A stretch of DNA of 29,170 bases. It comes from a virus. The translations under genes and the position numbers were made by a program. Of this stretch, positions 6,836 to 24,530 are shown in pieces (position 1 is the stretch's first letter; the number at the start of each line of letters is the position of its first letter). Location of the stretch: IMG/VR virus record IMGVR_UViG_3300037963_001078, positions 31,427 through 60,596 of that record. One strand, given 5' to 3'. The notes beneath the pieces were generated by a model that searched no databases, was not told where the DNA came from, and was given only the letters and a program-made list of their open reading frames with translations.

Positions 6836-7090
6836 ATGGGCGGCATAGCAAAAACAATTAACAGAGCTTTTGGTGGTAGAAGTCCAAAATCTTCTGCGCC
6901 AGTAGTACAGCAAGCTGCACAGCCAGCAGCAACATCTGCAATGTCAACGCCTACGCCTGCAGCCATGAGATCTGGTTACGGTGGGCAAAGCACTATAATG
7001 ACAAGTCCTAGAGGATTAGAGAATGAAGCTAACGTAGGAAGAACTGTTTTAGGCGGAGGATCACGAACTGAACGTAGGAGAATGATGTAA
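6836..7090 (+). CDS. Small virion-type phage protein, copy 1 (EANVGRTVLG motif)
   Basis: An 84-residue low-complexity protein. The N-terminus (MGGIAKTINRAFGG) is basic and glycine-rich, the middle is rich in Ala, Pro and Gln, and the C-terminus has TIMTSPRGLENEANVGRTVL followed by GGGS. Small proteins with a (T/S)I(M/L)T...G...TVLG motif are common near portal genes of podoviruses and are thought to be virion-associated; the exact role is unknown. The same C-terminal motif recurs in the 70-residue product at 7616. AGGA precedes the ATG, 7 bases after the TerL stop. Confidence 0.75.
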   Translation: MGGIAKTINRAFGGRSPKSSAPVVQQAAQPAATSAMSTPTPAAMRSGYGGQSTIMTSPRGLENEANVGRTVLGGGSRTERRRMM

Positions 7091-7200: not shown

Positions 7201-7625
7201 TTGAAGTCCGTACAGACGACAATACAAAACAAGAAGCGTACGATTGGATAAAAAGCAGGGCGCATATAAACAGGGAGCTAGAAGAAAACGATAGACATAT
7301 TGCTTTTTTAGTAGATAATAGTATTAAGGCATGTTTATTGTTTTCAGATTTTGATGGTTACAATATTTTTGTGCATTTAGCAATAGATGATGCAAGATTG
7401 TGCCAAAGAAGATATATAAGGTTGATGTTTGATTATGCTTTTAATCAATGCAAATGTGGTAGAATGACAGCAATGTGTGTTGATGGTTACAGAAGAAACG
7501 AAAAATTACTGCAAGGTGTTGGTTTTGTAAAAGAAGGTGTAATTAGACAGGCAATGTTAGTAGATAATAAATATGTAGATGCAGCTTTATACGGAATGTT
7601 AAAAGGAGAATGTAAATGGGTATGA
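7197..7625 (+). CDS. GNAT-family N-acetyltransferase
   Basis: A 142-residue protein with the secondary-structure pattern of GNAT acetyltransferases: a helix with HINRELEENDRHIAFLVD, the strand pair around IKACLLFSDFDGYNIFVHLAID, then RYIRLMFDYAFNQCKCGRMTAMC and the C-terminal NEKLLQGVGFVKEGVIRQ, typical of these enzymes. It would transfer acetyl from acetyl-CoA to an amine; the substrate is unknown. Phage GNATs next to portal genes are common. It lies between the two EANVG-motif proteins and overlaps genes at both ends, so it is an integral operon member rather than a recent insertion. Confidence 0.75.
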   Translation: MIEVRTDDNTKQEAYDWIKSRAHINRELEENDRHIAFLVDNSIKACLLFSDFDGYNIFVHLAIDDARLCQRRYIRLMFDYAFNQCKCGRMTAMCVDGYRRNEKLLQGVGFVKEGVIRQAMLVDNKYVDAALYGMLKGECKWV

Positions 7626-7828
7626 AAGCAAAACCAGAGATGCCGCCACAAATTGATACGTCTGTTACAGATAGAACTGCTGAAAAAGAAGCAGCGTTAG
7701 AAAAAGAAAGACAAAGAATGATAAAGGCAGGTAAATCAGGTCTAGGTTATAGTATTATGACAGGCGGACAAGGCGTAACTGACGAAGCAAATGTTGGTAA
7801 AACTGTATTAGGAACAGGATCACAGTAA
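7616..7828 (+). CDS. Small virion-type phage protein, copy 2 (EANVGKTVLG motif)
   Basis: A 70-residue protein with an AGGAG 7 bases before the ATG at 7616 (a second in-frame ATG is at 7622). The N-terminus differs from copy 1 (MGMKAKPEMPPQIDTSVTDR, then a charged helix KEAALEKERQRMIKAGK), but the C-terminus SIMTGGQGVTDEANVGKTVL followed by GTGS matches it closely. It overlaps the GNAT stop and its own stop overlaps the portal start (TAATG). Probably a small virion component; function not established. Confidence 0.75.
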   Translation: MGMKAKPEMPPQIDTSVTDRTAEKEAALEKERQRMIKAGKSGLGYSIMTGGQGVTDEANVGKTVLGTGSQ

Positions 7829-9728: not shown

Positions 9729-10550
9729 ATGTACCCAGAAGAACAGGCCGATATGGAAACACAGGCAACCCAAGACAGCACTGTACTTGGATCTGAAGTA
9801 GATAGCGATAACCTAGATTGGAAATCATCACTACCATCTGATCTTGCTAATGATCCTACAATAGCACAATTTAAAGACGTAGAAAGTCTTGCAAAAACAG
9901 TTGTTCATCAACAAAAACAAATGGGCAGTAGAATACCATTACCAAAAACAGATGATGAATACAAAGAATTGTATGGCAAATTAGGCAGACCAGACGAGCC
10001 AGCAGGATATGAGATGAAAGTACCAGAAGGTATGGATGCTTATTTTAATGATAATATTATGGGCGAGTTTAGAAACGTAGCGCACAATATTGGATTGAGC
10101 CAAAATCAAGTAAATGCACTAATGGAGTACCAAGCAAGCATGGTTACAGCTGAAATAGATAATCAACCATCAATATTGGCAGCGCAAAAAGAAGAAACAG
10201 AAAGTGTGCTGAAACAAGAATGGGGTATTGATTACGATAAAAATATACGAGCTGCACAAAGAGCATTGCAAGTGTATGGAGATCCAGAAATAATGGAGCT
10301 AATGAATACAACAGCTGGTAACAATCCTGCTGTAGTAAAATTATTTGCAAGATTAGGTGCAGAAGTAACAGAGGATATGACACAGAATACACAGAACAAT
10401 AATCTAGCAACTTCACGACTAGACGCACAAGATGAAATTTCTGATATATATTCTAATCCAGAACATCCGTATTTCAACGGATCACATCCAGATCATAGAG
10501 CCGCTGTAGAAAAAGTCAGACAACTACATGAAAAAGTTTACGGACGATAA
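9729..10550 (+). CDS. Capsid assembly scaffolding protein
   Basis: A 273-residue acidic protein directly before the major capsid gene, the usual scaffold position. The segment DWKSSLPSDLANDPTIAQFK with VESLAKTVVHQQKQMG, followed by TDDEYKELYGKLGRPDEPAGYE, is typical of marine phage scaffolds. The rest is helical, and a short basic C-terminus (HPDHRAAVEKVRQLHEKVYG) would bind capsid protein. It directs prohead assembly and is then lost. The ATG follows AGGAAAGAG. Confidence 0.85.
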   Translation: MYPEEQADMETQATQDSTVLGSEVDSDNLDWKSSLPSDLANDPTIAQFKDVESLAKTVVHQQKQMGSRIPLPKTDDEYKELYGKLGRPDEPAGYEMKVPEGMDAYFNDNIMGEFRNVAHNIGLSQNQVNALMEYQASMVTAEIDNQPSILAAQKEETESVLKQEWGIDYDKNIRAAQRALQVYGDPEIMELMNTTAGNNPAVVKLFARLGAEVTEDMTQNTQNNNLATSRLDAQDEISDIYSNPEHPYFNGSHPDHRAAVEKVRQLHEKVYGR

Positions 10551-10557
10551 TTAAGAT

Positions 10558-10585
10558 TTGTAATCTAAATGTTTCATGTTATACT
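10558..10585 (+). promoter_or_regulatory. Putative promoter of the capsid gene
   Basis: TTGTAA (10558-10563, 4 of 6 matches) and TATACT (10580-10585, 5 of 6) are 16 bases apart, predicting a start near 10592 and a leader of about 137 bases before the capsid ATG. The gap between scaffold and capsid genes (178 bases) is otherwise non-coding, unlike the tightly packed genes around it. Confidence 0.5.
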
Positions 10586-10600
10586 AGTTTAACATTTGCA

Positions 10601-10697
10601 GGCCCAGACGGATAACTTGCACTGTGGGTATGATGCCTTAAAATCCGCATGACAGTGCGTTATCTGTAAGGTTTCCCTGTGTTACAGGATAAAAACC
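10601..10697 (+). ncRNA. Structured 5' leader RNA of the capsid gene
   Basis: Hairpin 1 pairs 10608-10616 with 10659-10667 (9 pairs, one G-U), has a two-base TT bulge, then pairs 10619-10625 (GCACTGT) with 10652-10658 (ACAGTGC): 16 pairs in all. Its loop can form an inner ATGC/GCAT stem, and loop GGG (10626-10628) can pair with CCC (10603-10605) upstream, an H-type pseudoknot. Hairpin 2 pairs GGTTT (10670-10674) with AAACC (10693-10697) and CCTGT (10676-10680) with ACAGG (10684-10688). It ends about 20 bases before the AGGAG of the capsid gene. No known RNA family was recognised. Confidence 0.6.
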
Positions 10698-10728
10698 GTT
10701 TTAACTTTAACTTAACAGGAGAACTATT

Positions 10729-11589
10729 ATGTCAATAGAAATCACTACAGCTTTTGTCGAGCAATACAAAAGCAACGTGTTCCACTTGGCACAGCAAAAA
10801 GGTTCAAGATTAAGAGATGCGGTTAGATCAGAAACGGTTGTTGGTAAAGCTCATTTCTTTGAAAGAATCGGTACTGCTGCAGCAGAGCGTAGAACATCAC
10901 GCCATGCTGACACACCAAGAATGGATACACCACACTCCAGACGTAAAGTAACTATGGACGATTACGACTGGGCAGACTTGATTGATAACGAAGATAAGGT
11001 ACGTATGCTTATCTCGCCTCAATCAGAATACGCAATGGCAGGCGCATGGGCAATGGGCCGAGCAATGGATGATTCAATTATTAGTGCAGCTACAGGCACA
11101 GCTTATGGCGGTGTAAGTGGCGGAACTAGTGTGGCTCTTCCATCTGGTCAAAAAGTTGCTCACGGATCTGCAGGTTTAACACTGGCAAAACTATTATCAG
11201 CTAAAGAAATTCTTGACGCTAATGATGTTGATCCAGATGAGCCAAGATTTTGCGTGGTTACTGCAGGCCAATTAACTGATTTGTTAGGAGTAACACAAGT
11301 AACTTCAGCAGATTTTTCTAGTGTGAAAGCACTTGTGCAAGGCGAAATTAACACTTTCTTAGGTTTTAATTTTATCAGAACTCAACGTCTAGGTACTGAC
11401 AGTGATGGTAATCGCCAAGTGTTAGCTTTCACTTCATCAGGAATAGGACTTGCTGTCGGTCAAGATGTGAACACTCGCATCAGCGAACGTGCAGATAAGA
11501 ACTATGCAACGCAAGTATTCCTATCAATGACTATCGGTGCTACACGTATCGAGGACGAAAAAGTCGTTGAAATAGCTTGCACAGAATAG
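10729..11589 (+). CDS. Major capsid protein
   Basis: A 286-residue protein after the scaffold, of the size usual for HK97-fold capsid proteins of small marine podoviruses. Typical pieces are TAFVEQYKSNVFHLAQQKGS at the N-terminus (the extended arm), TSRHADTPRMDTPHSRRKV, DYDWADLIDNEDKVRMLI, AMGRAMDDSIISAATG and, at the end, VFLSMTIGATRIEDEKVVEI. It forms the icosahedral shell. AGGAG lies 7 bases before the ATG. Its separate promoter and structured leader suggest that it is expressed at higher level than its neighbours. Confidence 0.9.
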   Translation: MSIEITTAFVEQYKSNVFHLAQQKGSRLRDAVRSETVVGKAHFFERIGTAAAERRTSRHADTPRMDTPHSRRKVTMDDYDWADLIDNEDKVRMLISPQSEYAMAGAWAMGRAMDDSIISAATGTAYGGVSGGTSVALPSGQKVAHGSAGLTLAKLLSAKEILDANDVDPDEPRFCVVTAGQLTDLLGVTQVTSADFSSVKALVQGEINTFLGFNFIRTQRLGTDSDGNRQVLAFTSSGIGLAVGQDVNTRISERADKNYATQVFLSMTIGATRIEDEKVVEIACTE

Positions 11590-11601: not shown

Positions 11602-12066
11602 ATGGCTACAGTTTATTCAGTACAAAAAACAAAATGGTCGCAGAATAACCCTTCTGAAAAAATTAACACGAATGAAAAAGGCGGAAGGCTACGTATTGCT
11701 TATGCACTATACGAAGCGTCAAGCCTTGCATCAGGAGATGTTATTGAAATGTTCAATCTACCTAACGGTGCTAGAATATTAGAAGGTACACTTACCCATG
11801 ATGCTCTAGGTAGTAGTACAACACTATCTGTTGGACACGCAGCTTACACAAGCTCTGCAGGTGCAACAGTTGCATTAGATGTTGACGAATACTTTGCAGC
11901 AGCTGCTTCTACATCTATCACTACGGTGGCAGTTGCAGCAACATCAGCATTAGGAAGAAACAGTGTCGTAGACGCTAACCAAGATGGTATTCCTATTACT
12001 GTTGTTATGGGTGGAGCTGCTGGTACAGGTACAATTGAATTGACTATGTACTACGTTCTTGACTAA
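11602..12066 (+). CDS. Head decoration-like virion protein
   Basis: A 154-residue protein immediately after the capsid gene, with AGGAGG before the ATG. The sequence is Ala/Thr/Ser-rich and beta-structured (LASGDVIEMFNLPNGARILE, TTLSVGHAAYTSSAG, then GTIELTMYYVL). Small beta-rich proteins in this position usually decorate the capsid surface or are minor head proteins. The family is familiar from marine phages as an unnamed structural protein, so the role is inferred from composition and location. A strong hairpin follows the stop. Confidence 0.65.
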   Translation: MATVYSVQKTKWSQNNPSEKINTNEKGGRLRIAYALYEASSLASGDVIEMFNLPNGARILEGTLTHDALGSSTTLSVGHAAYTSSAGATVALDVDEYFAAAASTSITTVAVAATSALGRNSVVDANQDGIPITVVMGGAAGTGTIELTMYYVLD

Positions 12067-12078
12067 GAACAACAACAT

Positions 12079-12098
12079 GGGGGGAGTAACATCCCCCC
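12079..12098. other. Perfect G6A/TC6 hairpin after the decoration-like gene
   Basis: GGGGGGA (12079-12085) pairs with TCCCCCC (12092-12098) with a six-base loop. No T-run follows on either strand, so this is not a standard terminator. It may protect the 3' end of capsid-decoration mRNA or slow transcription into the tail genes. Confidence 0.6.
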
Positions 12099-15166: not shown

Positions 15167-15652
15167 ATGTTTTTTGGATTATTTGGATCATTAATAAACG
15201 CAGCATTTACTATGAGTGCTGCACGACAACAAATACAAATGATGAAAGCAAACGCAGCTTGGCAAAAATATGAATCAGAACTAAATCATCATTATGAAAA
15301 ACAAAAAAGATTAACTGAACAAAGAAAATTATTAAGTGAACAAAGAGCAAGAGGTGCGGCTGCTGGAGTAGTAGTAGGAACTGGTAGTAGTCTGATTGCT
15401 ATGAACGCTGACATGGAAGAGTTTGAAACAGATTTATGGTACATGGAAAAAGGATTATGGGTAGAGGGTAAGACAAGAGATGCAGAGTTAGCAGGAGAAA
15501 TAGCAGCAACAACCTATAATGCAGGATCTAGTATATTAGGTGGATTTATGCAAGGTGCTAATCAAGCGTCAAGGATGCAACAAGCAACTACATTTGGTAG
15601 TGGCATTTATGCTTCTGGCCCTATGTCTACTCCTATGTCAGGTATATTTTAG
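15167..15652 (+). CDS. Internal virion protein, gp14-like
   Basis: A 161-residue protein after TAGGAGAATAAA. A short hydrophobic N-terminus (MFFGLFGSLINAAFTMSAAR) is followed by a long charged helix (KYESELNHHYEKQKRLTEQR), a hydrophobic glycine segment (RGAAAGVVVGTGSSLIAMNA) and an Ala/Gly-rich C-terminus. This is the shape of T7 gp14-type ejection proteins that insert into the outer membrane. It is the first of three consecutive internal virion protein genes, in the T7 order. Confidence 0.75.
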   Translation: MFFGLFGSLINAAFTMSAARQQIQMMKANAAWQKYESELNHHYEKQKRLTEQRKLLSEQRARGAAAGVVVGTGSSLIAMNADMEEFETDLWYMEKGLWVEGKTRDAELAGEIAATTYNAGSSILGGFMQGANQASRMQQATTFGSGIYASGPMSTPMSGIF

Positions 15653-15661
15653 AGGTAAAAC

Positions 15662-17506
15662 ATGGTTAGAATACCAAGATACGAAGGATCGCTAGGAACA
15701 TCACCAATTAGAAGTGGCAGAAATATAAGAACTGGCACTAGTGGTGCTAATGCACTAATGAATTTAGGGAAAGAAATACAACAAAACCTAAATCAATTTG
15801 GTGAACAAAGGATCGCACTACAACAAAAAATTAGAGATCAAGAAATAAGAAACAAAGGATTGTTAGCGCAAGCTGAAACAAATCAATGGATTGAAGATGA
15901 AAAACAACGTTACGAGGCTAGAGATGATTATGAAATGTTTGGATCTTTATACGACAAAGATGTTGAAGTATGGAGAAAAGAATTAAAGAAAAAACATTTT
16001 ACAACAAATGGTGTGGTTGATGAAATAGCATGGAACGCACACCTTGCAGATATGTCAACACAATTTGTTACAGGCAAAATTGAAATAAATAAAATAGCAA
16101 AAAAGAAATTTAATCACACAACTATAACAGCTTACGAAACAACAACTAGTGATGCAATAAAAAACATAGGCAATTCAACTTCTGTTTCACAAGCAGAATC
16201 ATTATACAGAACTTATGAAGCTATATACAATGAACACAAAGACAATGAGATTTTTGAGCCATCTGAAATCAATAAGTCATTTGAAAATGTAAAAAAACGT
16301 ACAAACGAACAATTAGCATTATTTGCAGTAGGGGGCGGAACTTTGCCAACTTATCAAAATGAATTTGGTGATACAACATTAAATGCTAGAGAAATAGCAT
16401 CTAAATTAGGAGATAAAAATTTTAATTTTACAGATGTTGACGGTAATGATGTTCCTTTTACAAGTGAATTTAGGCAAGAGTTAATAACAAATTATACAAC
16501 ATTAGCAAACACACAATCACAAAATGATACAGCAGAAAGAAATCGATTAGCAGATGCAGATAACTCTACTTTAACAGACAGATTAATAGACATGAAAAAA
16601 AAGAACAAATTAGATGAAAGTTTTATTGATGACGTGCGAGATTCAGATGCAACACCAGTTAGAAAAGACCAACTAGTTAATGATTATTTAGCATTACAAA
16701 CAAATATTAATGTAGATTATGTAGATACACAGGCAGGTAGAAACACAGAAGTTGTATTAAATAATTTAATAGATTCAGGAGCTATTTCTTATAACGATCC
16801 AGAAGAAATGGCCCTTATAAGTAATGCGTACATACAAAATCTTATAGATCAAGAAACTTACAATTCTATGCTAAATAGAGCAGAAAATGTGCAAAGAGAA
16901 AAAGGTAAAATATACGTAAAGAAAACTATAGCAGCAGCAAGAACTATAGCAAAAAGATTAGGAAATCAAAATTTGTTTCAACTTATGGAAGAAATACAAC
17001 AAGACACAGAAACCGATCCAGCAGATAGAATGACCAGTATGATGGCTCTGTTAGATTCAAATGCAGATCATTTACTAATATATGAAGCAGTAAACAACAT
17101 GAACGAAATAGTAGAAGGAGCAGTAAAAGAAGGTATACCGATAGATGACTTGTTAACAAATGTAGCAAGCGATAATTACATTGTAGATGATATAATAGAA
17201 GTCTATGAAAATAAAAAATTTGAGGCAATAGAAAGTGCGGCAGAACAAGAAGCACAAGAGATGTTAAAGGACAAAAAGTATTTAGGTTTTGGAGATAACG
17301 AATTTAGAATAAAACCAGCATTATATTTAAATACACTAAATGCAACAATACCAGCTGAATACGCTGCAAAAGATGGTGAAACTATCGAAGAATATGTTGA
17401 TAGAGTTGGAGTTATTAGCACACCGTTTGGCATACAATATTTCCCAGATACTGTAGATGTTAGCTCATTAACATTTAAAAAAAATTTAGGTCAAAATAAT
17501 GAGTAG
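15662..17506 (+). CDS. Internal virion protein, gp15-like
   Basis: A 614-residue, mostly helical, hydrophilic protein between the gp14-like and giant internal proteins, the position of T7 gp15. The N-terminus (VRIPRYEGSLGTSPIRSGRN) is followed by long charged helices (EIQQNLNQFGEQRIALQQKI, KQRYEARDDYEMFGSLYDKD). No enzymatic motif is seen. It is expected to be ejected with DNA and form part of the periplasmic conduit. The end overlaps the giant gene by 8 bases (ATGAGTAG). AGAGG precedes the start. Confidence 0.7.
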   Translation: MVRIPRYEGSLGTSPIRSGRNIRTGTSGANALMNLGKEIQQNLNQFGEQRIALQQKIRDQEIRNKGLLAQAETNQWIEDEKQRYEARDDYEMFGSLYDKDVEVWRKELKKKHFTTNGVVDEIAWNAHLADMSTQFVTGKIEINKIAKKKFNHTTITAYETTTSDAIKNIGNSTSVSQAESLYRTYEAIYNEHKDNEIFEPSEINKSFENVKKRTNEQLALFAVGGGTLPTYQNEFGDTTLNAREIASKLGDKNFNFTDVDGNDVPFTSEFRQELITNYTTLANTQSQNDTAERNRLADADNSTLTDRLIDMKKKNKLDESFIDDVRDSDATPVRKDQLVNDYLALQTNINVDYVDTQAGRNTEVVLNNLIDSGAISYNDPEEMALISNAYIQNLIDQETYNSMLNRAENVQREKGKIYVKKTIAAARTIAKRLGNQNLFQLMEEIQQDTETDPADRMTSMMALLDSNADHLLIYEAVNNMNEIVEGAVKEGIPIDDLLTNVASDNYIVDDIIEVYENKKFEAIESAAEQEAQEMLKDKKYLGFGDNEFRIKPALYLNTLNATIPAEYAAKDGETIEEYVDRVGVISTPFGIQYFPDTVDVSSLTFKKNLGQNNE

Positions 17507-20500
17507 AAGAGTTACTGCAGCACAATTAAGAGCTGCTGGTTTTACTGAAGAATCAATTATTGAACACATTGAGAATGAACGCGATAGATACAAAAGCGTT
17601 GGTTTTAGTGATTATCAAATAAATAATTTTTTTGGTATAGAAAAATCATCAACAATATCAAAATCATTAATAGGAGATGAAAATAACAACTCAACAGGTA
17701 TGTTGCAATCTGTCAATACAGACGATCAAGTAAACACAGAGGACATTAATGTATTAGAAAAAAAAGTAAAAGAAGGCCAAGATGTTGATACCTCAGAAGA
17801 AATAGTCCCAGAAAAAGATACTGTAGTAAATCCTAATGATGAAATACCAGTTACAAAAGCAAATTCTACAGGAAGTAATACAGAAGAAGAATACGTCAAA
17901 CCTATTATAGATGGTACAAACGCAACATCATATAACATAGATTTATACAAAAATATTAAAGATGAATTGATACGGCAAGAGGTTGAGGATACTGCTGCTG
18001 GCATTATGTTGTCCCAAGGCAAAATTTATTTTGATCGTTTAACTGACCAACAAAAACAAGATTATTCTAAAAATGGTGGAAAGCTAGAAATAGATGGCAA
18101 ACCAGTAGAAGTTATAATAAACGCACAAAGATTAAGAAAGCAAAGAGAAGAACAAGAAAGAGCTAAATTAAAAGTGCTTGATGAAACAGCTTCTACTGGA
18201 TTATATACATTTAGTGTGATGAATGATACACAAATAAATTACGGATTGAATGAAAATGAAATAAATACATTAAATTTTAATCTAAGCGTTTTGTCTGGAA
18301 TAGTTAGCGATAATACAAACAAAAGAAGCGCAGACGACAGTGCAGGCGGATTATTTCAAATAAAAAATGATGAAATAGTAGGATTATTAAATGACTTAAA
18401 TGATCTTATGCTTTCTTACGATCCAGATTTTGAAAGACCAACATGGTGGAATAAAGCTTATGGTCATAAGAAAGCTGACGTACTACCTGTAGATGTGCAA
18501 AGAAGTCTTGCCTTAATAAAATTGACAAAAAATGTAGATGCCCCTGATTTAATTGTAGCTGCAGCGCAAGGAAACGTAGAAGCATTAGAAACTTTATTGT
18601 TTGAATATTATGATACTTCATTAATTGACAATCCAAAAGGATTTTTAAGAGCAAAAGAATACTATGGATCTTGGTCAACATTTGATTATGAATATGTTAT
18701 GGCTGGACTGTCAACTTTTAAAGATGATGGATTAATTACTGAAGCATTAGAAAAAAGTAATATTGGTAAGAAAATTATTGAATTTTCAGGTGGTCAAGGT
18801 GCTTATAGTCCTTTCGGTAATGGATTTCAAACTTCTGTTATGGGATTATTTTTAGATTTTCAACAACAAAAAAACGAATATGGTTTTACAAATAAAGAAG
18901 CACTAGAAAATTCTTTTATGTTTCAAACAAAAAATTTCGGTCAAGATGTAATTACAATGGCTGCACAAGTTGTAGGTGATTCACCTGCCATAGCAATAGG
19001 AACAACATTAGGTTTTGTCGGTGGGGTAGCAGGAGGGCCAGCAACACCAATACTTGCTATTACAGGTGGTTTTGCATTGCCAGAAACACTTAGAGATGTT
19101 TACATGAGAGCTATGTTAAATGATGAAGTAGATGATTTTCACGACTTTATGAATGAATTAATTAATGTAAAAACAGCAATATCTGCTGGTAAATTTACAG
19201 TTACAGGTGCAGCAACAGGAACAGCTGGTGTTTTTACAAGAAGAAAATATGGTAATACTGCAGCACTAGGAGTTGAAACTGCAACAATGGTTTCTGTTAT
19301 GTCTGCATTAGAAGGTCAAGTCCCTAGCAGAAAAGATTTTTTAAACGCTGCAGTTATGATATATGGAATACATGGTGTTGGACGAGGCACTAATAAACTA
19401 TACAATATTTATAAAAAATATGGCATACCACCACAAAATCTAAGAAAAGCAGCAGATGAAAATCCAGAAATTTTAGCTGATTTACTAGATACAGATATGG
19501 ATGCGCCACAAATATTAATCGATATGAACGAAGCTTATGTATCTGGATTGTCTGACGCAACTAACACTAAAATTGTTGATCCACCAAAAAATAATATAGG
19601 AGCTGACATAAAAACAGAAAGCTCAACAGAGCGTTACAAAATTGTTGATAGACAAACAACAGATTATGGAGAAACAGTAATTAAAGTTGAACGCAACAAT
19701 GATCCAAAATTAAAAGAATTAGAAGAAGATTTACGCAGACAAGAAAGAGATTTAGAACTTATAGAAAACCCAGATTCACTGTATCTGGGAGATAGAGTTG
19801 AAGGAATAATAAAAAAAGAAATAGAAATTAAAAAAACTAAAAAACAGATTGAAGAGCAACGAGGCAAATCTAAAGAATCAGATATAGAAAGAATAGATAT
19901 ACCTGAAGAATCCTCTTACATGGCAATGCCAAAAGACAAACTTGATATAGAAATTGTTGGAGAAAGCATTAACATACAACCAAGAGTTGAAAAGGATTTT
20001 CAGATAAAACAAAAAGATGGAGCTTTTAATAGAGATATAGTAGAAACCAGAAAAGATGACAAATTTTTAAAAAGAAACTTAAATGAAATAGAAGGTGAAA
20101 TTACAAACTATACAACCAATGATTATGTTGTTAGCGGTACTGAAACATTTGGTACGTCTAAATATTTCATAAACAAAAAGGCATACCCAGAGTTATTTGC
20201 AGAAATGAAAAACTATTTAGGTGGCACTAAAAAGAAAGCAGGTAAAACAGACAACGTTATTAATACATATTTTAAAAAGTTAAACTTGTCTAAAATGTCA
20301 AAAGTAGATGAAGTTTTTGGCATTAGAAAAAATGGATCAAGCGGCAGTCCTTACAATAAAATTATACTAAGAACAAACAAAGGTGATTTTGTTGAAGTGC
20401 CAGCACAAATGTATGCAAATATAAAAGAGTATACATACACTGCAGATAATTTTGAGGTAAAAGCAAAAGCAACATTAGCTTATGATAAAAATTTATTAAT

Positions 20501-23500
20501 AGCTTATGACGAAGTTGCAAATAAAGTTATTGCTGTATTACAAGCAAAAAAAGTAGATCCGAAAATAAACACACAAGCTAATACTTATTACGAAAGATAC
20601 ACAAAACGTGATGATAAAGTATTTCCAGATACCAACAACAGAAATGCTGATATTGGCCAAAGAAAAATGCCAGATGAGCCAGAATCTATATTTAAAGAAG
20701 AAGATCCATCATACAGAACTGCTGAATCATACGAAAGATTTTTTAATAGTGCAAAAGGTTTAGAGGTAGTAGATCTTGTTGCATTGGTAAGAACTTTAAC
20801 AAAAAACACTCCTCAATTAAAAAACGTAATAAGAACTCAAAAAGGCGAAGCGCTTGGTGTTTTTAGATACGCAAGCAGTAACAAAAAAAGGACTGATAAA
20901 CAATTAAGAGTAGAAATAGTACGTGCTTTGCAAGAAGATCCAGAAAAATTTGCTATGACACTTGCACACGAAATAGGTCATTTAATTGATTCATTGCCAG
21001 AAGGTGTTATAAAAAACAAAGATAATTTATTAGGAAGATTAGCTGGATTAAAAGGTTATATGAACGAATGGATAGGTGCAAAAGCAGATGGTGCTAGTCC
21101 ATTGAATAAAAGAGAAATAGCACGTATAAAAAAAGAGGCAGAAGCAGACGCGCAAAAGTTATACGAGAAAAACAAAAAAGATTTAGAAGAAGAAACAGGA
21201 ATTACAGCAGATGACATTAAAGGTATTATAAATGATCCAGAGTTTAGATCTAAAATAAATCCTGATTTTTATGATGAATTTTTAAATTTGTCAGACGCAC
21301 TAAGAACACAAATATTAAAAAGTGCTTTCAAAGGTATTATTGATCCATACATAAAACCATTAGTAGATAAATACTCTGGAGCTAATGTAAAACATACTGC
21401 CGAAATCATGGCAAAAGCAGAAGAAATATTTGCTAGAAAAGTTGAAGCTGAAATGCGTGCTAGAGGACTAGTAAACAGACAAGAGATAACGCAAGAATTA
21501 ATATCTTTATCAGAAAAATGGAAACCTTACGACAAACAAGAAATGTTGAGGCAAGATCCAGATTTTGTAAAATACAGAGAAAGCTCTCCAGAACTAATGG
21601 CAGATTTTATGATGGCTATACTTACAAGGCCTAGATGGACTATGCTAAATGCACCAAAGGCAACACAACTATTTTACAATCACATGTATACTAGACCAGA
21701 TGTAAGGTTTGCTTATGAGCGTACACAAAATATTTTACAAGCACCAAAAAGTGAACGCTATGGTCAATTTTTTGTAGACATTGCTGATATGTTTTCAGAC
21801 AGTAATCAAAAATTGCTTGAAGCAAAAACAAACGCATACAGAGAAAGCAAAAATGTTTATGACACTTTTATGATACATTATGTTGACACTGCTGGTTGGT
21901 TTTTAAATAGAAAAAGTGGTGGTGGTAAAGCATTTGGTTTTGATAATTTTATGAGAAACAGATGGATGGATGAAGCAACAATGGCAGTAGACGCTAAATT
22001 AAAAGCATATCAATACAGGCCAGTTGTATTAGAATCATACGTAACTCAGATGGGTAAAATTTTAACAAAGTTAGAAAAATCTGGTCGCGGTGATATAGAG
22101 CAATTAGGTACAGCATTGTTGTTAAGAAACTTAGCAAATTCAACGCAAAGAAGCAAAGTAGCAAATCCAACTGGCATGTGGGCAATGTTAGAAAGAGATG
22201 CAGATGGAAAAGCTTTTGCAGCAAAGCATCAGGATAAATTAAGAAATCCTGCAGAAGCGTATGAAATATTAATAAAAGACAATCCATTATTAGATGAATT
22301 AGTAGAAGAGTTTTACAAAGTTAGAAAAGAGTTTGTAATACCATTGTTTCGTGAAAGCAAAGCATTTAACAAAAAACAACTAGAAATGCTGGAAAACAAT
22401 TTAGAATATGTAAATTATAACGTAACAGAGCAAGCAATTAAAGTTATGCAAGAAAGCGGTGGCAATAAAACTTTAACTGCTGCATTTATGAAACCAACTA
22501 TAGGAACATTACAAGATATAATAAATCCTTTTCAATCAACAATAGAAAAAGATCTTTTAATGATTGGTGAACTAAAAAGAAACGCACTGATACACGATAT
22601 GGCAAATTGGATGATACAAAATAAAAAGATGCTAGAAGATTTTGGATCAGCAGAAATGCAAAAACTTGTCCCAAACTGGAAAGATAGAATAATACAAAAA
22701 GCAAAAACAAAAGACGAAAAAGGCACACTAGCTCCACCACCATTGGGTATGGAAACAGTATCATTTCTATCTGGTGGTAAGTATGTGCATTATTATTTTA
22801 ATAAACAAGCTGCAATAGCTTTTAAACGAAATCCAGAACAATATGTTGGTTTTATGGAATGGATTAGTACAGGTAACGCGTTTCTTAGAGGAATATTTAC
22901 ACAATACAATCCTGTTTTTTGGAACAAAGAAATTGTAAAAGATGCAAGAGCTACAGTAACTAACATACCAAAAGCAACTTTCTTTTTTGGTAAAGACACT
23001 AGATACGTACCTACACTGATAAAATCATTAAAACCAGCTTGGAAATCAGTATTTGGAGAAGGTGATGATGTAACAAGAATGTTCAATAGAGAAGGTTATT
23101 GGCTACCAATCACTGATGGTTACAGAACAAACGCAGGTAGAAAACATTTAAAATATAGAAACAAGCAAGGTGAATTACAAGGAGATCTATATTATAGAGA
23201 GCAAATTGAAGCAAAAATGGGAATGAGAACACGAGAAAAATTTTACGAAAAAGTTTTTGGGCCTTTATATGATTACATAGGTAAAATAGCAATTTTTTAC
23301 GATAGAGCTAATAAATTAGGAGGATACACTCAAGCAAAAAAAATGATTGATAATGGAACAATACCTCCAATGACGAGAGATGAATTGTATTTACGAACAG
23401 TGTCTGATTTTGGATCGCCACCATTTGGATTACACGGTCAACTACATCCAGTAACAAACAATCTACTTTTATTTAGTAACGCATTTACACAAGGATGGAG

Positions 23501-24530
23501 AAGAGATTTAGCTGTTTTGAAAGGTGATCCTGTAGACATACTAGGCAAACACATGAAATATCAAATACTTCCAAAGATGGTTGAGTATTTAGCAAAAATA
23601 GGTATTTTTGGTGGTTATTTAGAAGCAGTGTACGGTGGCGTTAGAGAATATGACAAATTAAATTATCATATTATACCATTAGGTTTAACATCAACTGGTA
23701 GGTCATATTATTTAAGAATACCAATGGATGAAACTGCAAGATTTTTTGCAGGACTTTTCTTTACAACTGCTGACGCAATAGGTGGTGGTGGTGAAATAAG
23801 AGATATACTAAATGTAGGTACAGAAACATTACCATCATTTTCACCAGTCATTCAGTTTCTAAGTAACACTTACAAAATAATGGTAGGTGGTGAAAATCCA
23901 GTAGATCCATACACACAAACAAAAATATTAGATGAAGATGTATTTAACTCTGATTTACATTTGAGAAAAGTAACAGATTATTTAAAATATCAATTTGATA
24001 ATAATATTGGAGGCACAGTAGGTTTTAAATTTAAAAGTGATAATTTAGAAGAATTAGCTTCTGAACTAGAAGAGATATTAAATTTTCCAATAATAGGTAG
24101 ACAAATACAAAACTATTTAATGGTCGGCAATGATCCAAAAGAAGTTGCTATGAGAGAAGAAGTAAGAGCGTTAACAACTTCAGAAGCAACGGATAGAGTT
24201 ATTTACAAAGACGCTCTAGTTAAATTAACCGATCCTTTTGCTATGGAACGTTTTACACAAAGAGAAATAGAAATGCTAGTTAAAAACGCAAAATATATCA
24301 AATCTAATAATGTTGTCAAAAGAGCTTATGTTAGGGCATTTGGTGGCCCTGATTACGTAGAATATTTTTTACAAGCTGATAAAAAAGAACAATTTGCAAT
24401 ATTAATTCGATTCTTAGAGCCAGACATGTCTATACATGGAGAAGGTGCAAGTAACATTTTTTCAGAAATTTACCAACAAATAAAAGATAGCGGTGGAGTA
24501 GAAAATGTACTTCAAAATGTAATCGAATAG
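17499..24530 (+). CDS. Giant internal virion protein (2343 aa) with HEIGH motif and LPD38-like region
   Basis: The largest gene in the window, in the place of T7 gp16. Near the N-terminus are two short GF(T/S) helical motifs (RAAGFTEESIIEHI, KSVGFSDYQINNFFG). Residues about 265-287 (LSG..., SADDSAGGLFQ) resemble a lytic transglycosylase GLxQ motif, but the usual catalytic Glu seems replaced by Leu265. Residues about 482-530 and the following part are hydrophobic and glycine-rich, as in membrane-crossing ejection proteins. HEIGH (1157-1161, within FAMTLAHEIGHLIDSLPEG) is a zinc metallopeptidase motif. About 1780-1980 (FTQYNPVFWNKEIVKDAR, then FGSPPFGLHGQ) resembles the LPD38 domain of large polyvalent proteins. 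Likely ejected to open a path through the cell envelope. Confidence 0.85.
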   Translation: MSRRVTAAQLRAAGFTEESIIEHIENERDRYKSVGFSDYQINNFFGIEKSSTISKSLIGDENNNSTGMLQSVNTDDQVNTEDINVLEKKVKEGQDVDTSEEIVPEKDTVVNPNDEIPVTKANSTGSNTEEEYVKPIIDGTNATSYNIDLYKNIKDELIRQEVEDTAAGIMLSQGKIYFDRLTDQQKQDYSKNGGKLEIDGKPVEVIINAQRLRKQREEQERAKLKVLDETASTGLYTFSVMNDTQINYGLNENEINTLNFNLSVLSGIVSDNTNKRSADDSAGGLFQIKNDEIVGLLNDLNDLMLSYDPDFERPTWWNKAYGHKKADVLPVDVQRSLALIKLTKNVDAPDLIVAAAQGNVEALETLLFEYYDTSLIDNPKGFLRAKEYYGSWSTFDYEYVMAGLSTFKDDGLITEALEKSNIGKKIIEFSGGQGAYSPFGNGFQTSVMGLFLDFQQQKNEYGFTNKEALENSFMFQTKNFGQDVITMAAQVVGDSPAIAIGTTLGFVGGVAGGPATPILAITGGFALPETLRDVYMRAMLNDEVDDFHDFMNELINVKTAISAGKFTVTGAATGTAGVFTRRKYGNTAALGVETATMVSVMSALEGQVPSRKDFLNAAVMIYGIHGVGRGTNKLYNIYKKYGIPPQNLRKAADENPEILADLLDTDMDAPQILIDMNEAYVSGLSDATNTKIVDPPKNNIGADIKTESSTERYKIVDRQTTDYGETVIKVERNNDPKLKELEEDLRRQERDLELIENPDSLYLGDRVEGIIKKEIEIKKTKKQIEEQRGKSKESDIERIDIPEESSYMAMPKDKLDIEIVGESINIQPRVEKDFQIKQKDGAFNRDIVETRKDDKFLKRNLNEIEGEITNYTTNDYVVSGTETFGTSKYFINKKAYPELFAEMKNYLGGTKKKAGKTDNVINTYFKKLNLSKMSKVDEVFGIRKNGSSGSPYNKIILRTNKGDFVEVPAQMYANIKEYTYTADNFEVKAKATLAYDKNLLIAYDEVANKVIAVLQAKKVDPKINTQANTYYERYTKRDDKVFPDTNNRNADIGQRKMPDEPESIFKEEDPSYRTAESYERFFNSAKGLEVVDLVALVRTLTKNTPQLKNVIRTQKGEALGVFRYASSNKKRTDKQLRVEIVRALQEDPEKFAMTLAHEIGHLIDSLPEGVIKNKDNLLGRLAGLKGYMNEWIGAKADGASPLNKREIARIKKEAEADAQKLYEKNKKDLEEETGITADDIKGIINDPEFRSKINPDFYDEFLNLSDALRTQILKSAFKGIIDPYIKPLVDKYSGANVKHTAEIMAKAEEIFARKVEAEMRARGLVNRQEITQELISLSEKWKPYDKQEMLRQDPDFVKYRESSPELMADFMMAILTRPRWTMLNAPKATQLFYNHMYTRPDVRFAYERTQNILQAPKSERYGQFFVDIADMFSDSNQKLLEAKTNAYRESKNVYDTFMIHYVDTAGWFLNRKSGGGKAFGFDNFMRNRWMDEATMAVDAKLKAYQYRPVVLESYVTQMGKILTKLEKSGRGDIEQLGTALLLRNLANSTQRSKVANPTGMWAMLERDADGKAFAAKHQDKLRNPAEAYEILIKDNPLLDELVEEFYKVRKEFVIPLFRESKAFNKKQLEMLENNLEYVNYNVTEQAIKVMQESGGNKTLTAAFMKPTIGTLQDIINPFQSTIEKDLLMIGELKRNALIHDMANWMIQNKKMLEDFGSAEMQKLVPNWKDRIIQKAKTKDEKGTLAPPPLGMETVSFLSGGKYVHYYFNKQAAIAFKRNPEQYVGFMEWISTGNAFLRGIFTQYNPVFWNKEIVKDARATVTNIPKATFFFGKDTRYVPTLIKSLKPAWKSVFGEGDDVTRMFNREGYWLPITDGYRTNAGRKHLKYRNKQGELQGDLYYREQIEAKMGMRTREKFYEKVFGPLYDYIGKIAIFYDRANKLGGYTQAKKMIDNGTIPPMTRDELYLRTVSDFGSPPFGLHGQLHPVTNNLLLFSNAFTQGWRRDLAVLKGDPVDILGKHMKYQILPKMVEYLAKIGIFGGYLEAVYGGVREYDKLNYHIIPLGLTSTGRSYYLRIPMDETARFFAGLFFTTADAIGGGGEIRDILNVGTETLPSFSPVIQFLSNTYKIMVGGENPVDPYTQTKILDEDVFNSDLHLRKVTDYLKYQFDNNIGGTVGFKFKSDNLEELASELEEILNFPIIGRQIQNYLMVGNDPKEVAMREEVRALTTSEATDRVIYKDALVKLTDPFAMERFTQREIEMLVKNAKYIKSNNVVKRAYVRAFGGPDYVEYFLQADKKEQFAILIRFLEPDMSIHGEGASNIFSEIYQQIKDSGGVENVLQNVIE

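Follow-up and report, generated by a model that had tools for sequence, protein, structure and literature searches.

In phage T7 the capsid gene belongs to a unit made up of the phi10 promoter, the stem-loop of the gene 10 leader, an A/U-rich enhancer, gene 10 and Tphi, the last of which lies before tail tubular A. Surveys of the Weinberg type have reportedly described structured phage-associated RNAs such as Mu-gpT-DE and GP20. HTVC010P-type phages rank among the ocean's most abundant viruses, and to our knowledge little is known about the regulation of their late genes. Stem-loops of the T7 gene 10 type and A/U-rich stretches raise expression elsewhere (PMC6146998). Another described system is put of phage HK022, which consists of two bulged stem-loops in ~70 nt, with putL lying just past its promoter; it acts in cis without a protein factor, and its antitermination involves the zinc-binding domain of the RNA polymerase beta' subunit (PMC9378689).

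Here we describe the leader of a capsid gene in a stretch of marine viral DNA of 29,170 nt (the window), which comes from an IMG/VR virus record of 60.6 kb (IMGVR_UViG_3300037963_001078). A gap of 178 nt between a scaffold/protease-like gene, which ends at 10550, and the capsid gene holds a promoter and the leader. The leader is structured and conserved, in a fold that differs from the one drawn in an initial annotation of this DNA. The features of the capsid unit are:

10558-10585, plus strand: sigma-70-type promoter TTGTAA-16-TATACT with extended -10 TG (from sequence; -10 and P1 spacing kept in relatives)
10594-10700, plus strand: whole conserved RNA element, 88.6 bits with covariance model R1 (covariance model, covariation)
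10598-10620, plus strand: P1 hairpin, GCAGG - C - [CC AGAC GG] - AUAA - CUUGC (two-sided changes in 5/5 lower pairs)
10608-10667, plus strand: 16-pair stem of the initial annotation, clade-specific and mutually exclusive with P1 and P3
10626-10638, plus strand: P2 hairpin, GGGUA-UGA-UGCCU, followed by UAAAAUCCG (two-sided changes in 4/4 modelled pairs)
10652-10667, plus strand: P3 hairpin, ACAG...CUGU, optional (two-sided changes in 6/6 modelled pairs)
10670-10697, plus strand: P4 hairpin, GGUUU - C - [CCUGU GUU ACAGG] - AUAA - AAACC (covariation; internal loop the same as in P1)
10698-10728, plus strand: A/U-rich linker UUUUAACUUUAACUUAAC and Shine-Dalgarno AGGAG at 10717-10721 (from sequence)
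10729-11589, plus strand: major capsid protein gene, phrog_3437
11602-12066, plus strand: small virion protein gene, phrog_486, second gene of the capsid unit
12079-12098, plus strand: strong hairpin GGGGGG-AGUAACAU-CCCCCC, which ends the capsid unit and precedes tail tubular protein A

A promoter ahead of the capsid leader had been proposed in the initial annotation, and one was found. The -35-side hexamer TTGTAA (10558-10563, plus strand) is followed after 16 nt by an extended -10, TGTTATACT (10577-10585). Most relatives have kept it: of the 75 with enough upstream sequence, 71 had at least five of six matches to TATAAT 12-24 nt upstream of P1, compared with ~30% of shuffles, and 61 had the TG extension. 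The distance from the -10 to P1 was mostly 10-13 nt in the relatives and is ~12 nt in the window. In L482, L489, L537 and HTVC010P (L173, 5622-5798) a short upstream reading frame extends, with its 3' part, over the -10 box and first hairpin, and the same DNA there serves as promoter, RNA structure and protein code.

At the other end of the unit, a hairpin comparable to that at 12079-12098 was observed in all canonical relatives (63/63) versus 19/300 control windows, and about half of these hairpins carried a T-rich tail. In some relatives (the L029 group and the HTVC010P type) these T tails resemble those of intrinsic terminators. The linkers of the relatives averaged 76-79% A+T and all had a Shine-Dalgarno-like motif; in 76 of 76 canonical leaders this motif and the A/U-rich linker lay outside the conserved hairpins. 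The window's linker also holds TTTAACTTTAA at 10700-10710, which we take to be present in the T7 gene 10 leader as well, and AACTT occurred in 34/76 canonical linkers versus ~3 expected. The unit resembles that of T7 in that the capsid gene has its own promoter and in that a strong hairpin or terminator stands after the capsid unit and before the tail tubular genes. The leader itself, with its 5'-proximal hairpin and A/U-rich linker before the capsid Shine-Dalgarno sequence, resembles the T7 gene 10 leader in likely working rather than by demonstrated homology, and it differs in having a conserved sigma-70 extended -10 instead of the phage-RNA-polymerase promoter phi10, four hairpins instead of one, and a repeated C/ANAA internal loop.

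Relatives were collected as 80 homologous loci found by capsid protein, 91 stretches found by the P4 pattern and 80 further loci found by the HTVC010P capsid. Among isolates, the capsid of Baldr is 78% and that of HTVC010P 60% identical to the window's. All 127 matches to the P4 pattern were directly upstream of a capsid gene of the phrog_3437 family, and each of 15 virus records had one strong match, always before the capsid gene. Against 84,980 prokaryote genomes the pattern gave 26 matches, about the chance number by our own estimate. A host counterpart was rejected: a single match lies before a capsid gene, and this one (L273, from a contig that bears the label Verrucomicrobia TMED56) is phage-like. 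Covariance model R1, built on 20 leaders, matched 66 of the 67 sources searched. It does not detect HTVC010P-type leaders, which are linked to the family because of a shared loop, a shared position and the intermediates L014 and L030 (see below). In agreement with the initial annotation, which had recognised no RNA family, nothing in Rfam 15 matched 10551-10728 up to E 10, and 12 loci with related leaders gave no match up to E 0.5. The leaders are like the RNAs of the Weinberg surveys in being structured RNAs beside phage structural genes, and unlike them in that no Rfam model matched the leaders tested, even at relaxed E-values. The literature that we searched held no description of the element.

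The fold shared by the relatives is P1-P2-P3-P4, with P3 missing from some. Across 66 homologous leaders (R1 alignment A3), 94.0% of its pairs were standard versus 76.9 ± 0.7 in shuffles, the covariation score was 0.396 versus 0.140 ± 0.008 in shuffles and 0.033-0.058 in slid controls, and 19 of 25 pairs had two-sided changes; alignment A3 was fitted to R1, which favours its own fold, and consists of related rows, yet the fold stands far above the slid controls. One apical CC:GG of P4 is changed to CG:CG in L073. G-U pairs outnumbered A-C mismatches by 97 to 12, and by 29 to 1 among the HTVC010P leaders, an asymmetry that points to the plus-strand RNA as the selected molecule and speaks against an element acting at the DNA level. 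Energy models gave P1 and P4 a low probability in many relatives and preferred other folds. Among leaders bearing P3, the CG in J23 (UCCG) and that in the P3 loop (GCGU), at 10639-10663, are almost invariant although the fold assigns them no partner, and a tertiary contact through them is possible. Other candidates were considered and set aside. In its P2 loop the window has a candidate upstream open reading frame, ATGATGCCTTAA, but relatives keep neither its start nor its frame. An RNase III site was rejected since the conserved hairpins are shorter than the usual substrate of that enzyme. An alternative helix between J12 and P3 gave a weak signal, and in L156 and L160 the "TGT" of J12 is retained although P3 does not match it.

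The initial annotation had drawn a 16-pair hairpin with a TT bulge as the main fold, its loop GGG pairing with an upstream CCC as a pseudoknot, and had suggested looking for compensatory changes in homologous leaders. Such changes were found, but for the P1-P2-(P3)-P4 fold. Its second hairpin is P4 (10670-10697), which is real and conserved, although the internal-loop motif that P4 repeats from P1 was absent from its account. The pseudoknot gained no support (58.2% pairs versus 58.7% in shuffles). The long hairpin does exist in the window, where 10608-10625 pairs with 10652-10667, but it is not conserved; in the relatives 55.2% of its pairs could form versus 52.7% in shuffles, with a score of 0.080. 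A working role for this hairpin, if only within the clade of the window and perhaps as a switch with P1 and P3, seems to us very improbable. The hairpin is the window's minimum-energy fold, with a base-pair probability of 0.99, and P1 would be the first to fold during transcription, with the long stem possible only later. The whole stem is nevertheless without meaningful covariation, its inner part is weak (77.9% versus 70.4%), and at least 15 of the 16 pairs can form in only five closely related rows (the window, L002, L004, L010 and L060). It may be an alternative fold peculiar to that clade. Stems of this length are rare, with 16 pairs reached by 3/300 shuffles and by 3/272 tiled windows, a count that includes the element itself; 1 of 831 sampled 107-nt windows was as stable as the leader, and the folding z-score of the whole 178 nt was only -2.0.

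The two outer hairpins, P1 and P4, share an asymmetric internal loop in which C stands opposite ANAA. The general form of P1 is stem - C - [CC..GG] - AYAA - stem, and that of P4 is GGUUU - C - [CC..GG] - AYAA - AAACC. Among 62 distinct rows ANAA was present in every one at both P1 and P4, and the unpaired C opposite it in 58 at P1 and in all 62 at P4. HTVC010P-type leaders (L179-L258) have a strand-swapped hairpin, P1', of the form UAAG - ACAA - [UUC GNAA GAA] - C - CUUA, in which the sequence and orientation of the loop are kept and the closed end of the hairpin now lies on the opposite side. Their structure was 98.6% paired and had 12 two-sided pairs versus 4.6 in shuffles. L014 and L030 join canonical P1 and P4 to a P2 of the HTVC010P type (AGUCU..AGACU UUAAA). 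In Vibrio phage CKB-S2, whose capsid is 30% identical, the two loop forms occur in tandem, as the class-1 hairpins CGG-AUAA-[UCA..UGA]-C-CCG and then GUCG-C-[CC GCAA GG]-AUAA-CGAC. Both are absent from L424, a close relative of CKB-S2, which indicates that the element can be lost. The capsid leader of Hodr (L178, 2420-2443) has one class-1-like hairpin, CUCGG-C-[CC AGCAU GG]-AAAA-CUGAG, within the final part of the reading frame that lies upstream; this may be a chance occurrence.

This loop weighs against a passive role, in which the leader would act as a stabiliser and translation enhancer like that of T7 gene 10, its 5' hairpin blocking 5'-end-dependent decay and its A/U stretch aiding ribosomes, with nothing reading the loop. 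The gene order and bracketing, which are those of T7, and the TTTAACTTTAA that the linker presumably has in common with the T7 leader speak for such a role. A passive leader would need no specific internal loop, yet C/ANAA is almost invariant at two sites and keeps its orientation when the strands are swapped, and P2 and P3 are conserved too. We therefore regard the passive role as rather unlikely.

In phages VP2, K300 and ZP6 and in several contigs, GUAG opposite U was observed at the same two places, as in GAGG-GUAG-[CGGAAGCCUCCG]-U-CCUC and GAG-U-[CCGGAAACGG]-GUAG-CUC. An unbiased scan with the pattern GAGGGUAGC..GUCCUC gave 120 matches. A paired apical stem together with a second, strand-swapped site was present in 12 of the 16 matches that preceded phrog_3437 capsid genes versus 0 of the 104 others (Fisher p 1.7e-13, a value inflated by relatedness). 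Within this GUAG/U class some capsids share 72-77% identity with that of HTVC010P, which indicates that both loops changed class together within a single capsid clade; for other capsids the identity to one another or to that of the window is only 22-37%. The loop class tracks neither capsid identity, as HTVC010P and L482 differ in it with capsids that are 77% identical, nor host, as both classes occur among Vibrio phages. The switch between capsids that are 72-77% identical also disfavours translation control by the capsid protein, one of the roles suggested in the initial annotation; its list as a whole (mRNA stabiliser, such translation control, ligand sensor or processed RNA) is neither proven nor excluded. 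R-N-A-R opposite Y describes both ANAA/C and GUAG/U. Since A-C and G-U wobbles are alike in shape, each loop class may amount to a wobble pair with a 3-nt bulge next to it. Exchange of entire leaders by recombination, instead of a shared partner, could explain why the two loops were replaced together.

Compared across the relatives at the level of sequence, the locus shows a host-type promoter, selection on the plus-strand RNA, a repeated loop, specificity for the capsid gene and a 3' hairpin. The reading that we favor, although it falls a little short of being probable, is that the leader is a cis-acting platform with two sites for one partner, which keeps the capsid mRNA stable and controls its translation. 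Transcription would start ~7 nt past the -10, which would place P1 almost at the 5' end of the RNA. The two equal loops would form a tandem binding platform for one putative partner, most likely an RNA-binding protein of phage or host, and they would work in both strand orders, with the GUAG/U class taking the place of both in other phages. With P1 close to the 5' end and a hairpin at the 3' end, the platform would stabilise a discrete capsid mRNA, and it would set the level of translation from an A/U-rich, unmasked ribosome site. It is possible, and we propose it tentatively, that these leaders represent a new class of two-site RNA control elements, in which a wobble-flanked R-N-A-R / Y loop, in the possibly isosteric classes ANAA/C and GUAG/U, occurs in matched, strand-swappable pairs. 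Such elements would be recognised by a conserved partner and would control capsid synthesis in a large group of podoviruses, the abundant HTVC010P-type pelagiphages among them.

The leader also has likenesses to HK022 put, which is known here by description only, as a self-comparison of the HK022 region did not locate it. Both are cis RNAs with two bulged stem-loops directly after a phage promoter. A put-like processive element, in which the nascent leader binds host RNA polymerase and reduces pausing or termination so that the long late operon is transcribed, would account for two motif hairpins after a host-type promoter and for terminator-like hairpins further down the operon, and put likewise acts in cis through two bulged stem-loops (PMC9378689). 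We think it unlikely that the leader works in this way. Each genome has one copy of it, placed before the capsid gene and nowhere else, whereas HK022 has put on both early operons; its two motif hairpins are split by P2/P3; and a terminator-like hairpin right behind the capsid unit makes little sense if termination is abolished. A metabolite-sensing riboswitch with two small binding loops is more improbable still. While the tandem, near-invariant loops recall small tandem riboswitches such as guanidine-II, an expression platform is absent, with neither a terminator nor a mask over the Shine-Dalgarno sequence (P4 ends ~20 nt upstream of it), and the leader serves only the capsid gene and matches no Rfam riboswitch.

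The element is a conserved, previously undescribed matched pair of hairpins, present in many relatives that infect SAR11, Vibrio and other bacteria, and it is probably a control handle for making the capsid protein. Structured phage leaders are of a known kind; the architecture of this leader and its loop module appear to be new. The element offers a concrete RNA handle on capsid production and possibly a new internal-loop module. The family is absent from Rfam and can be modelled now from existing contigs, and the capsid leaders of Vibrio phages VP2, CKB-S2 and K300 carry the same arrangement, which brings it within reach in culturable hosts.

During these comparisons we noted several other features of the window and its relatives. 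Two small proteins encoded between terminase and portal (6836-7090 and 7616-7828) have a common C-terminal motif (NEANVGRTVLGGGSRTE / DEANVGKTVLGTGSQ), and the gene between them aligns in position with the putative acetyltransferase of Baldr. In the structural region, a single open reading frame of 2343 aa (17499-24530) has a Baldr counterpart of similar size (15422-22411). In the pelagiphage GenBank records OQ414636 and OQ414635 (L172 and L178) the locus tags are swapped, with "Hodr" tags in the record of Baldr and "Baldr" tags in that of Hodr.
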